From Gammaproteobacteria bacterium (GTDB lineage: Bacteria; Pseudomonadota; Gammaproteobacteria; Steroidobacterales; Steroidobacteraceae): a DNA stretch of 64,000 nt. The first letter of the stretch is position 1; every line of letters starts with the position of its first letter. This document shows positions 15,400 through 64,000 of the stretch, one piece after another. A model generated the notes under the pieces. That model did not search any database, was not told where the DNA came from, and was given only the letters and a program-made list of their open reading frames with translations. The stretch lies in assembly GCA_011391405.1 (NCBI GenBank), contig JAABQQ010000216.1, positions 1-64,000 of the forward strand, written 5' to 3'. A program made the translations under genes and the position numbers.

Positions 15400-15586
15400 G
15401 GCGCCACCCGCCTGTGCCGTCACAGACCATTGCTCTCGACAAGAGCAATATTTGGGGAGGGCCGCGGCACTTAAGGCTTCCCGCTCGAGGCGGACTTGCA
15501 CAATGTTGCCGGCTGACCGTTCCCCGGGGTATTTACATTAAGGTCGAGAGGTAACCCGGCCCGTGTCGAACACCGCAGGCGGCGCC
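15400..15586 (-). ncRNA. ssrS: 6S RNA
   Basis: The 6S RNA mimics an open promoter and binds the housekeeping RNA polymerase holoenzyme. The interval between zapA and fau, the position of ssrS in gammaproteobacteria, holds a roughly 187-nt RNA closed by a 12-bp terminal stem: 15575-15586 pairs with 15400-15411, including the self-complementary GGCGCC at each end. On the 3' side the conserved AAGCCTTAA element occurs at about 15471-15479, at the position where E. coli 6S carries AGCCUUAA. Size, neighbours, closing stem and this element all agree. The exact ends are inferred from the stem. Confidence 0.88.
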
Positions 15587-46217: not shown

Positions 46218-46411
46218 CGCAAGGTCTGTCCGAAGAGTGGCCGGAAAACGGCCCGCCGAAGGCGCAACCCGCCCGGAAACGCTCAGGCAAAACAACGGCA
46301 GCACCTGATGGGCTCTGGAGAGCGGTCCGCCTCGTTGCGGACCCACCGAAGGGGTGCGGCATCGGCCTGGGGCTGGTTCCCGATCTCTCAGGTCAAAAGG
46401 ACAGAGGGGCG
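46218..46411 (+). promoter_or_regulatory. tandem glycine riboswitch (gcvT motif)
   Basis: Two aptamers in series sense glycine and control the gcv operon. The second is canonical: CTGGAGAGC (46315-46323), CACCGAAGGGGT (about 46343-46354) and CTCTCAGGTCAAAAGGACAG (about 46385-46404). The first, from about 46226, has CGCCGAAGGCGCAA (46254-46267) and CTCAGGCAAAAC (46282-46293). Both cores match the class. The 3' edge runs directly into a terminator hairpin, so glycine binding would favour read-through into gcvT, as known for the class. Confidence 0.93.
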
Positions 46412-60792: not shown

Positions 60793-61734
60793 ATGAACTC
60801 GACCCGTCGCTCCGCGAGCCTGCCGAGGACCCTCCGCTCGCTCGCGGCATTGGTCTGCAGCCTGCTGGTGTGCGGGGTCGCAGCAGGTGCGGCCTATCGC
60901 TACAAGGATTCGAGCGGCCAGTGGGTCTACACCGACCGACCCCCACCGCCCGGGCAGGCGTCACAAAGCGTGGCGCTGGGACGCGGCGGCGGACCGGCGC
61001 TCAAGATGACCGTGGAACCGCGGTCCACGGAGTCGGGCGTTGCGCTGGTGGCGATCAACCAGTGCCAGTGCGTCGTCGAGTTCGCGGCCAAGGCGCGGAC
61101 ACTCGGTGGCGAAAAGCTGGGGCGCGGGACGGTGTCGCCGCAGTCGGAAAAAATCCTGCTCGACATTGCGGCGGCCGATGGACCCGCGGAGATTCGCTAC
61201 GAATACGGCTACGTGGTCGGAGAACCCGGCGCACAGCACCGGCCGTCACAACCCTATCGCGCGCCGTTCGCGCTGGCCCAGCGATTCGAGGTGACGCAGG
61301 CGCCGCCGGATGCCGTCACGCACGTCGGCCCGGCGAGTCGCAGTGCCGTCGATATCGCGATGCCGGTTGGAACGGCCATTCACGCTGCGCGCGAGGGCGT
61401 GGTGATTAACGTGGCTGCGCGGCATTTCAAGACCGGCCTCAGTCTGCAGAACATGGACGAGGCCAACTTCGTGCAGATCCTGCACGAGGACGGCACGCAC
61501 GCGATCTATGCGCACCTGCAGCTGGACACCGTGCGGGTGAAGATCGGCCAGCGTGTCGCCCGCGGCGAATACATCGCCAACTCGGGCAACACGGGTTTTT
61601 CGACCGGGCCGCACCTGCACTTCGTCGTGTTGCGCAACATCGGCCTGCGCAGCGAGTCGGTCCCGGTCACGTTTGCGGGGCCCGGCGGCGCAGGCTCGAC
61701 GCCGCGGAGCGGGCAGGCGCTGACGGCGTATTGA
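60793..61734 (+). CDS. secreted M23 peptidase with an N-terminal DUF4124 domain
   Basis: The 313-residue product has a signal peptide (SLAALVCSLLVCGVAAG) leading into AYRYKDSSGQWVYTDRPPPPGQ, a DUF4124 module. The C-terminal LytM/M23 domain has the metal ligands in THVGPASRSAVDIAMPVGT (H and D) and PHLHFVVL (HxH), with IYAHL in between. It would cleave peptidoglycan cross-bridges, or act as an adaptor if inactive; all ligands look present. ATG 60793 gives a good signal peptide; TTG 60775 would extend it. No other cell-wall gene is next to it. Confidence 0.88.
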   Translation: MNSTRRSASLPRTLRSLAALVCSLLVCGVAAGAAYRYKDSSGQWVYTDRPPPPGQASQSVALGRGGGPALKMTVEPRSTESGVALVAINQCQCVVEFAAKARTLGGEKLGRGTVSPQSEKILLDIAAADGPAEIRYEYGYVVGEPGAQHRPSQPYRAPFALAQRFEVTQAPPDAVTHVGPASRSAVDIAMPVGTAIHAAREGVVINVAARHFKTGLSLQNMDEANFVQILHEDGTHAIYAHLQLDTVRVKIGQRVARGEYIANSGNTGFSTGPHLHFVVLRNIGLRSESVPVTFAGPGGAGSTPRSGQALTAY

Positions 61735-61750
61735 GCGCTCAGGATGCTAA

Positions 61751-62017
61751 GGTCCGCTGGAGGGGTTGCGGTCTTTCTCTGCGTTCCGAGGTCTCACGCG
61801 CATCGCAAACAAATAGGGGACGTGCACCTATTTCCCGATAACTCTGACGGGAAATAGGTGCACGTCCCCTATTTGTTTGCGGCGAGCCTTGCTCAAACGG
61901 GTGCTCGGCGATGGTGTCAGCGAAGCAACAGAACCCGCAGTGCCGCCTCGCACCTGCGTTCGAGCTGCGGCGTTCGACACGGACCGCAGAGAAAGACCGC
62001 AACCCCTCCAGCGGGCC
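61751..62017. repeat. nested inverted-repeat element
   Basis: Outer arms 61751-61783 and 61985-62017 are 33 bases each and complementary except at one place. They enclose a second, perfect 34-bp inverted repeat at 61804-61881. The remaining inside sequence (61882-61984) has no gene. The block lies exactly between the converging M23 and YyaL-like genes, so its long hairpins would also act in RNA from both sides. It may be a REP/MITE-type mobile unit; flanking target duplications were not found. The 61735-62037 stretch has no coding region. Confidence 0.85.
61804..61881. repeat. perfect 34-bp palindrome with 10-base loop
   Basis: Arms 61804-61837 and 61848-61881 are perfectly complementary; the loop is ATAACTCTGA. 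The arm contains AATAGGGGACGTGCACCTAT, a motif I recall as dispersed near REP-associated tyrosine transposases in proteobacteria; no such transposase is in this window. An RNA of it would make a very stable hairpin, probably a bidirectional transcription stop. Confidence 0.9.
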
Positions 62018-62037: not shown

Positions 62038-64000
62038 CTACTGACCCCGCAATTCGCGCACGAGCTGCGCCAGCGTCGGCACCGGCGGCGAGCACGTCAT
62101 GCCGCGGCAGACGTACGCAACCGCGCCGCCCAGTGCTTTCTTGCTGGCCAGCGCGGCCGGCAGATTGCGCGCATCGGTTGGCACGGCGACGATCATGCGA
62201 TGGGGATCGTAGAGCTTGTCGACCTCGCTGCGCCACACGTCGAGTTCGTCACTGTCACCGCGCAGCACCAGGATCCACGGCGGCGACGTGATTTCCTCGA
62301 GCGCCATCAGCAGCGTGCCGTGCCCGTGCGGATACCGCTCGATTGCCGCATGTGCCGACCTCAGCGTCGCTTCCGCGGCGTCGATATAACGCGTTTCGCC
62401 GAGCAGGTAACCGAGCCTGATCAGCACGCGGGCCGCGACGCCATTGCCGGCGGGCGTGGCATCGTCCGAGAACGTCTTTGGACGCAAGATCAGCGACTCG
62501 TGGTCATCGGCCGTGAAAAAGAATCCGCCGGCCTCGTGATCGGTGAAATGCTCGAGCATCACGTCGACGAGTTCGACGGCCCAGGCGAGGGCGTCGGCAT
62601 CCCAGCGTGCTTCCAGCAGTTCCAGCAAGCCCCACGCCAGCATGGCGTAGTCGTCGAGGTAGGCGGGGAAACGGGATTCGCCGTCCGTGTGCACGGCCAG
62701 CAGTCGTCCATCCTTCCAGCAGCGTGCCCGCAGGAAATGCATGGCCTGCACTGCGGCACCTGCCAGGTCGTCACGTTCGAGCACACGGCTGGCGCGTGCC
62801 AGTCCGCCGATCGTCATGCCATTCCATGACGTCAGGATTTTCTCGTCGCGACCCGGCCAGACCCGCTCATTCCTCACCTCGAGCAACCGCGCCCGTGCTT
62901 CGTCGATGCGGGTTTCGACGGTAACTTCGTCGAGCCTTAGATCGGTCGCGATATCGGCGAGCGACTTGAACGAATGCAGGTGCCACTGGCCTTCGAAATT
63001 CGCGTCGCGGTCGAGGCCGAAACGCTGGGCGAAAGGCTCGTACTGCTCGACATCGAGCAGGTCTCGTACCTCGTCCGGTGTCCAGACGTAGAACTTGCCT
63101 TCATGGCCTTCGGAATCCGCATCCAGCGTTGAGTAGAAACCGCCCTCGGGCGAGCGCAGGTCGCGCAGCAGCCAGTCAGCCGTTTCTGCCGTGACGCGGC
63201 GGAACAGCGTTTCGCCGGTGGCGACGGCAGCCTGCGCGTACACACCGAGCAGCTGTGCGTTGTCGTACAGCATCTTTTCAAAGTGCGGGATCATCCAGTA
63301 CGGGTCAACGGAGTAGCGGCAGAAGCCGCCGCCGAGCTGGTCGTACAGGCCACCTTCGCCCATGCGCGTCAGCGTGAGCGTCGCCATGTAGAGCGCCTGC
63401 AGGTCGGGCTCTTCGCTTGCGGCCGACGCGCGCCAGGTGCGCAGCAGCAGCTCGAGGTTGGCCGGGTGCGGGAACTTGGGGGCCTCGCCGAAGCCGCCGA
63501 AACTGCCGTCGAATTCGCGCTGCAGGGTGGCACGGGCCGTCAGCAGGGGTTCACTCGATAGTCCTGCGCCCACGGAAGCCGTGGGGGGCTGCAACTGCCC
63601 GAGCACGTCGACCAGCTTGTCGCCGTACTCCTTGAGGTCGCCACGGCGCGTCTTGTAGAAATCGTCCACCTTCTCGAGCACGGCGCGGAAACCCGGCATG
63701 CCGTAACGCTGCTCGGGCGGGAAGTACGTGCCCGAAAAGAACGGCCTGTGCGAATCGGGCGCCAGGAACATCGTGAGCGGCCAGCCGCCGCCCGCCTGGT
63801 TCATCACCTGGTGCGCGGTCTGGTAGATGCGGTCGAGGTCGGGGCGTTCCTCGCGATCCACCTTGATGTTTACGAACAGCTCGTTCATGAGCGCAGCGGT
63901 CGCGGGATCTTCGAACGATTCGTGCGCCATGACGTGGCACCAGTGACAGGCCGAATAGCCGATCGACAGCAGGATCGGCTTGTCGAGCTTGCGCGCGAGA
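62038..64000 (-). CDS. thioredoxin domain protein, YyaL/DUF255 family (5' end outside window)
   Basis: At least 653 residues are visible; the N-terminus lies beyond the window. The first visible part reads KPILLSIGYSACHWCHVMAHESF, the CxxC motif of the DUF255 thioredoxin-like domain, followed by LFVNIKVDREERPDLDRIY and GGWPLTMFLAPD. The rest is a six-hairpin (alpha/alpha)6 barrel as in N-acylglucosamine 2-epimerase-like and YyaL/SPATA20 proteins. ATG 63930 would cut off the CxxC, so the true start is upstream. Function is unknown; redox or sugar-epimerase-like roles have been proposed for relatives. Confidence 0.92.
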   Translation of the reverse strand, partial: LARKLDKPILLSIGYSACHWCHVMAHESFEDPATAALMNELFVNIKVDREERPDLDRIYQTAHQVMNQAGGGWPLTMFLAPDSHRPFFSGTYFPPEQRYGMPGFRAVLEKVDDFYKTRRGDLKEYGDKLVDVLGQLQPPTASVGAGLSSEPLLTARATLQREFDGSFGGFGEAPKFPHPANLELLLRTWRASAASEEPDLQALYMATLTLTRMGEGGLYDQLGGGFCRYSVDPYWMIPHFEKMLYDNAQLLGVYAQAAVATGETLFRRVTAETADWLLRDLRSPEGGFYSTLDADSEGHEGKFYVWTPDEVRDLLDVEQYEPFAQRFGLDRDANFEGQWHLHSFKSLADIATDLRLDEVTVETRIDEARARLLEVRNERVWPGRDEKILTSWNGMTIGGLARASRVLERDDLAGAAVQAMHFLRARCWKDGRLLAVHTDGESRFPAYLDDYAMLAWGLLELLEARWDADALAWAVELVDVMLEHFTDHEAGGFFFTADDHESLILRPKTFSDDATPAGNGVAARVLIRLGYLLGETRYIDAAEATLRSAHAAIERYPHGHGTLLMALEEITSPPWILVLRGDSDELDVWRSEVDKLYDPHRMIVAVPTDARNLPAALASKKALGGAVAYVCRGMTCSPPVPTLAQLVRELRGQ

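Follow-up and report, generated by a model that had tools for sequence, protein, structure and literature searches.

The non-coding block that separates an M23-like peptidase gene from a convergent YyaL-like gene is made of two dispersed bacterial repeats, one nested in the other, the inner palindrome having taken over the central hairpin of the outer element. The block is located at positions 61,751 to 62,017 of the window, i.e. the whole stretch of DNA that was analyzed (64,000 nucleotides, positions 1 to 64,000 of contig JAABQQ010000216.1 in the Gammaproteobacteria bacterium assembly GCA_011391405.1). The outer repeat spans about 220 bp without its insert and folds as a three-way junction comprising a terminal stem (P1), a central hairpin (P2), and a third hairpin (P3). 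The usual definition of small dispersed repeats relies on the conservation of their ends, whereas the ends of this family are hypervariable and nearly perfectly paired. Judged from Rfam and a limited literature search, the outer repeat is apparently undescribed so far.

The stop codons of the convergent M23 and YyaL-like genes are 303 bp apart, and the block fills all but about 36 nucleotides of this gap, as proposed in the initial annotation of this DNA. The absence of coding content that it reported was also confirmed, since ORF inspection revealed no convincing gene within the block. The nested inverted repeats are present, far beyond chance, with amended dimensions. The outer arms are 38 nucleotides long and 95% complementary (Table 1), rather than 33 bases long, and weaker pairing extends outwards to positions 61,736 and 62,032. 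The inner repeat, described as a perfect 34-bp palindrome, does have fully complementary arms (100%); it consists in fact of two arms of 34 nucleotides each (61,804–61,837 and 61,848–61,881) separated by a 10-nucleotide loop, for a total of 78 nucleotides. Its foot, CAAAC/GTTTG, is followed by AAATAGGGGACGTGCACC...GGTGCACGTCCCCTATTT. The predicted folding energy of the block was −200.5 kcal/mol versus −111.7 kcal/mol for dinucleotide shuffles (z = −17.1), and the opposite strand also folded beyond its dinucleotide shuffles (z = −16.4).

Table 1. Coordinates of the nested repeats and of the flanking genes in the window.
Feature	Position	Strand	Observations
M23-like peptidase gene	60793–61734	+	Syntenic in sister genomes; the + strand of the element comes after its stop codon
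P1 left arm (terminal stem of the outer element)	61751–61788	+	95% complementary to 61980–62017; 16 nt past the M23 stop codon
Conserved 5′ junction motif GGTCTCACGCGCATCG	61790–61805	+	Near-invariant in genus copies; related GGTCGGCCGCGCTTCG in other genera
Inner palindrome (GGGGACG family) in place of the central hairpin P2	61804–61881		Perfect 34-nt arms; dispersed genome copies; ordinary P2 in two sister-species orthologues
Conserved P2-P3 junction motif CGGCGAGCCTTGC	61880–61892	+	Kept within the genus; GGCGAACCTTGC in other-genus copies
Third hairpin P3	61891–61965	+	Covarying pairs in the consensus fold
Conserved 3′ junction motif TGCGGCGTTCGACACG	61966–61981	+	Near-invariant; query for the named MAG copies
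P1 right arm (terminal stem)	61980–62017	+	Arm pairing; 20 nt between its end and the stop codon of the YyaL-like gene
YyaL-like gene, convergent	62038–63999	−	ORF running off the window; syntenic

On the plus strand, the outer element is organized in the order P1 left arm, GGTCTCACGCGC(A/T)TCG, P2, CGGCGANCCTTGC, P3, CTGCGGCGTYCGACACG, and P1 right arm. The junction bases are conserved among the outer copies; the terminal stem and the central hairpin are hypervariable in sequence but about 95–99% paired. In an alignment of 27 outer copies, which was fitted to the model structure and hence leans towards pairing, 95.6% of the cells were paired and double changes were detected at 31 of the 53 pairs. 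This level of pairing was reached by none of 500 shuffles and fell to 26–46% when the partner columns were slid as a control. Because a third hairpin and the junction motifs are conserved, we consider the outer repeat as a structured element and not as a mere pair of arms. The P2 hairpin is an ordinary one, TGAATCGCGC...GCACGATTCA, devoid of the inner palindrome, in most outer copies of the window's own genome (G000), and a perfect hairpin of entirely different sequence in other genera. One copy of G000, on contig C66 (L038), lacks P3; both of its arms are still paired and the inner palindrome is present. Comparison of the outer and inner repeats with Rfam returned nothing above the gathering score. 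Matches to miRNA hairpins were obtained below the threshold for the inner palindrome only, and those of the mir-4524 type were dismissed as generic hairpin matches.

A covariance model (R1) built from 18 copies of the outer element picked up further copies, including the diverged L152 and L153 in another genus, and was extended with the diverged copies found in this manner (R2). Two doubtful matches, L173 (obtained with R1, 31 bits) and L168, were excluded. With strict filters that may miss weak matches and scoring of the best 7–13 candidates per genome, R2 detected the outer element in 10 of the 217 genomes of the host's family (four genera, 1–14 copies each) and, among 369 sampled genomes of the class, in the window's own genome only. 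At least one of the ten family hits, L179 in genome G393, seems divergent, with a weak arm stem, and looks doubtful. The copy numbers, which are lower bounds owing to the fragmentation of the MAGs, were about 12 in G000, 13–14 in G004, about 7 in G005, and 1–3 in the other genera of the family. In a search of the whole G000 genome, matches at about a dozen places ran through the right half of the outer repeat, the left junction, or both. The 3′ junction motif retrieved outer copies from the gammaproteobacterial MAG records JAPLSF, JAOUGW, and VEPJ. The plasmid and phage collections searched contained no outer-element match.

Of the 29 copies of the outer element, 27 are located directly downstream from a stop codon, in a single orientation. 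With genes predicted by a caller whose codon-usage model was trained on the window, a co-directional gene was found directly 5′ of 18 of the 19 genus copies that had a called neighbor and of 9 of 10 further copies, the plus strand of the element beginning 1–100 bp past the stop codon of this gene. The neighbor on the other side was either convergent or co-directional. Convergent gene pairs harbored inverted pairs of elements, each copy lying by its own gene (C238 in G000; C73 and C210 in G004), and one inverted pair was also detected on C76 of G247.

Comparison of orthologous sites revealed a MITE-like pattern of presence and absence. At the M23-YyaL site, the outer element was present with an ordinary P2 in G005 (L103) and G004 (L106) and absent from G001, G007, and G008. 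The intergenic gap was 303, 278, or 266 bp long with the element versus 6 bp (G007) or 34 bp (G008) without it. This observation, together with the unrelated flanks of the many copies recovered by the whole-genome search, is in agreement with the mobile unit that had been proposed from the sequence of the window. Because most outer copies are old and common to three species, we infer movement of the outer element from presence and absence alone. Inspection of the flanks by eye revealed no evident target-site duplication, the empty sites being diverged, and no transposase, other enzyme, or parent transposon was found tied to the outer element. The copy located on C145 of G005 (L095) lies in reverse orientation at what is apparently the same gene 3′ end as the copies on C198 of G000 (L002) and C275 of G004 (L102). 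L095 differs from the latter two by its P3 subtype and by wholly different arms, which suggests that it inserted independently close to that site. Another repeat, terminator-like and apparently unrelated, CTCTCCCGC..GCGGGAGAGGTCGCGC..GGGTGAGGGC, was observed beside many outer copies (L108, L113, L105, L002, and others), and flanks the element on both sides, in inverted orientation, at L108.

The terminal stem P1 comprises 30–53 paired bp (median of 35 in 32 copies), with 1156 Watson-Crick cells for 57 mispairs, which corresponds to about 95% Watson-Crick pairing along the aligned stems. Its first 32 bp are about 98% paired in the genus copies. Identity between copies has a median of only 39% for the outer 18 bp of the arms; the inner 20 bp or so are related among most copies (GGTCTTCC..GCGCTCC). 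In seven comparisons of orthologous arms at six loci, 35 pairs differed, of which 29 had changed on both sides with conservation of the pairing. The two arms stay identical to each other while orthologues diverge, a pattern of concerted evolution. Recent origin or ongoing selection, to which the arm identity had been attributed, is therefore not the sole reading of a repeat whose arms co-diverge between orthologues. These changes on both sides, 17 of the 29 being transversions, fit templated arm-to-arm correction better than slow selection on RNA. Such correction, perhaps with selection added, is suggested by the substitution pattern in a small sample of six orthologous loci, and compensated changes can also come from selection on RNA structure. 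A template-switch process has been proposed for RNA hairpins (PMC8794818) and is known for E. coli quasipalindromes (PMC7202029). In reports on RNA genes, E. coli reporters, and yeast genes (PMC8794818; PMC7202029; PMC8604942), arm-to-arm copying of this kind explains why stems are long and perfect and why double substitutions occur simultaneously; here it would act on arms that belong to a family of dispersed elements.

Judged by resemblance, the most suitable label for the inner repeat is that of a TIRYT/RAYT-type palindrome. TIRYT transposase genes have GGGGWSAS TIRs, and REP dimers nested inside longer palindromes are on record (PMC3733652). The inner repeat is akin to TIRYT/RAYT palindromes in its AAATAGGGGAC core, which resembles GGGGWSAS, and in its dispersed and mostly extragenic location. 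At the level of the genus, a related motif flanks a Y1 transposase gene, as AATAGGGGACACTCC-like motifs are present on both sides of such a gene, in inverted orientation, in G002. The inner repeat differs from TIRYT/RAYT palindromes by its motif, which is GGGGACGT in the window and GGGGACGC in most copies, the latter being one base off GGGGWSAS. The GGGGACG motif of the window departs from GGGGWSAS, GGGGACAC of G002 fits it, and the GTAG tag was not seen in the inner palindrome. In addition, no Y1 transposase or RAYT gene was found in the G000 assembly, which is 78% complete. Y1 genes (PF01797) were detected in six of the nine genomes of the genus, with AAATAGGGGACATTCTCC near that of G006. 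Contig C186 of G005 (L127, 1474–2346) encodes a 290-residue Y1 transposase with a weak DnaA_C/HTH-like match in its C-terminal part.

The inner palindrome, AAATAGGGGACG[TG/CT]CACC..., is present in about 25 copies in the genome, with differing flanks and many of them outside the outer element; a reversed-pattern control gave no match. The P2 hairpin carries such a palindrome in three outer copies of G000 (the window, C110, and C66), and also in L165 of G005 (a diverged GATCGGGGACG version) and L096 of G008 (a partial copy). With about 25 palindromes in 3.5 Mb, chance is an unlikely explanation for this recurrent use of one hairpin. In a simple test, which is not our main argument, 4 of 19 REP copies were located inside palindromes, a result equaled in 4 of 2000 runs of a mismatched-flank control. 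The nested repeats also exemplify how a mobile palindrome family can settle repeatedly in one and the same hairpin of a second family.

We favor, with moderate confidence, a reading in which the outer repeat is a family-restricted, non-autonomous structured element whose P2 harbors a Y1-type palindrome. The outer element would move rarely and land immediately downstream from stop codons, with a constant orientation, a putative enzyme recognizing the junction of a folded strand rather than the end sequences. The arms of P1 and P2 would drift freely in sequence, their pairing being restored by arm-to-arm templating during replication. In the window copy, a Y1 enzyme would have inserted the inner palindrome (61,804–61,881) into the tip of P2 or in place of this tip. 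In integron attC sites, structure outweighs the sequence of the arms and unpaired bases are conserved; the outer element may be compared with these sites for its way of working only, as its size and three-way junction set it apart. More tentatively, and with a rather low probability, the outer element could be the earliest observed member of a class of mobile DNA that is recognized, as a folded strand, through the bases of its three-way junction alone, inserts just 3′ of stop codons, and has terminal arms fully turned over by arm-to-arm copying yet still paired. If true, it would offer a natural record of template-switch repair on a repeat family. Because double substitutions are in excess in orthologues and many are transversions, the family is suited as a test bed for whether RNA selection or templated copying at the replication fork keeps hairpin arms paired, a long-standing question on compensatory evolution.

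Selection at the RNA level is central to the most serious alternative, which we nonetheless regard as doubtful, namely that the outer repeat is a functional 3′-UTR RNA (an mRNA stabilizer or processing signal) with helices selected in the transcript and spread by ordinary duplication. The fixed orientation right after stop codons, the conserved junctions, and the very strong covariation are in agreement with this proposal. In contrast, mispairs on the gene-sense strand were more often A·C than G·U (22 versus 11 cells in P1 and 12 versus 6 columns in the core), the reverse of the prediction. The same counts had first given the impression that the minus strand was the folded RNA, with a ratio of about 4:1 that dropped to about 2:1 when further copies were included. 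Because the minus-strand signal weakened in this manner, the A·C excess is counted solely against selection on the sense-strand RNA. Double changes of the transversion type cannot proceed via a single G·U intermediate, and 17 of the 29 compensated changes were transversions. The outer arms also diverge almost at the rate of four-fold sites, since 3–4 of 15 pairs (roughly 20–27%) in the outer half of the window arms differ from orthologues, the inner half being more conserved, for 28–30% divergence at the four-fold sites of the neighboring M23 gene used as a yardstick. Finally, this proposal has no Rfam match to draw on.

The initial annotation had suggested that a RAYT-type transposase could mobilize the block as a MITE/REP unit. 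The outer repeat does resemble bacterial MITEs of the ERIC, NEMIS, RUP, and Correia type in being a non-coding repeat of 70–300 bp with inverted repeats at its ends, scattered beside genes and likely transcribed. Unlike MITEs, it shows the least conservation in its terminal repeats, the conserved sequence being that of the junction motifs, and no parent transposon was found. Since conserved terminal repeats are a defining feature of MITEs and the comparison of copies did not reveal them, the outer repeat was not filed as a MITE. That both nested repeats form one such unit is improbable: the inner palindrome is indeed of the Y1-transposase (RAYT-like) TIR type and the outer element is dispersed, but there are two families. 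The majority of outer copies have no inner palindrome, inner copies are for the most part found away from the outer element, and the orthologous outer copies of G004 and G005 contain an ordinary hairpin.

The other role initially considered, a strong bidirectional transcription terminator, is very improbable in spite of the position between convergent genes and the very stable hairpin. The outer element lacks the arrangement of intrinsic terminators, in which a run of T follows a GC-rich stem: no T-tract is present past either stem end, and the lone terminator-like match falls within an arm, at the chance level. Moreover, sister species manage with 6–34 bp between the two genes, and several copies are located between co-directional genes. 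Insertion of the element into the loops of existing terminator hairpins, the unique arms being host sequence, can practically be set aside, since the locus-unique arms right after stop codons and the CTCTCCC..GGGAGAG terminator-like repeats beside many copies are outweighed by stems of 30–53 bp that far exceed usual terminators, by the relatedness of the inner 20 bp or so of the arms among most copies, and by the G001, G007, and G008 sites, which are devoid of such arms.

Elsewhere in the window, Rfam models matched a 6S RNA (RF00013, 67 bits) at positions 15,401–15,584 on the minus strand and a glycine riboswitch aptamer (RF00504, 53 bits) at positions 46,220–46,307 on the plus strand.
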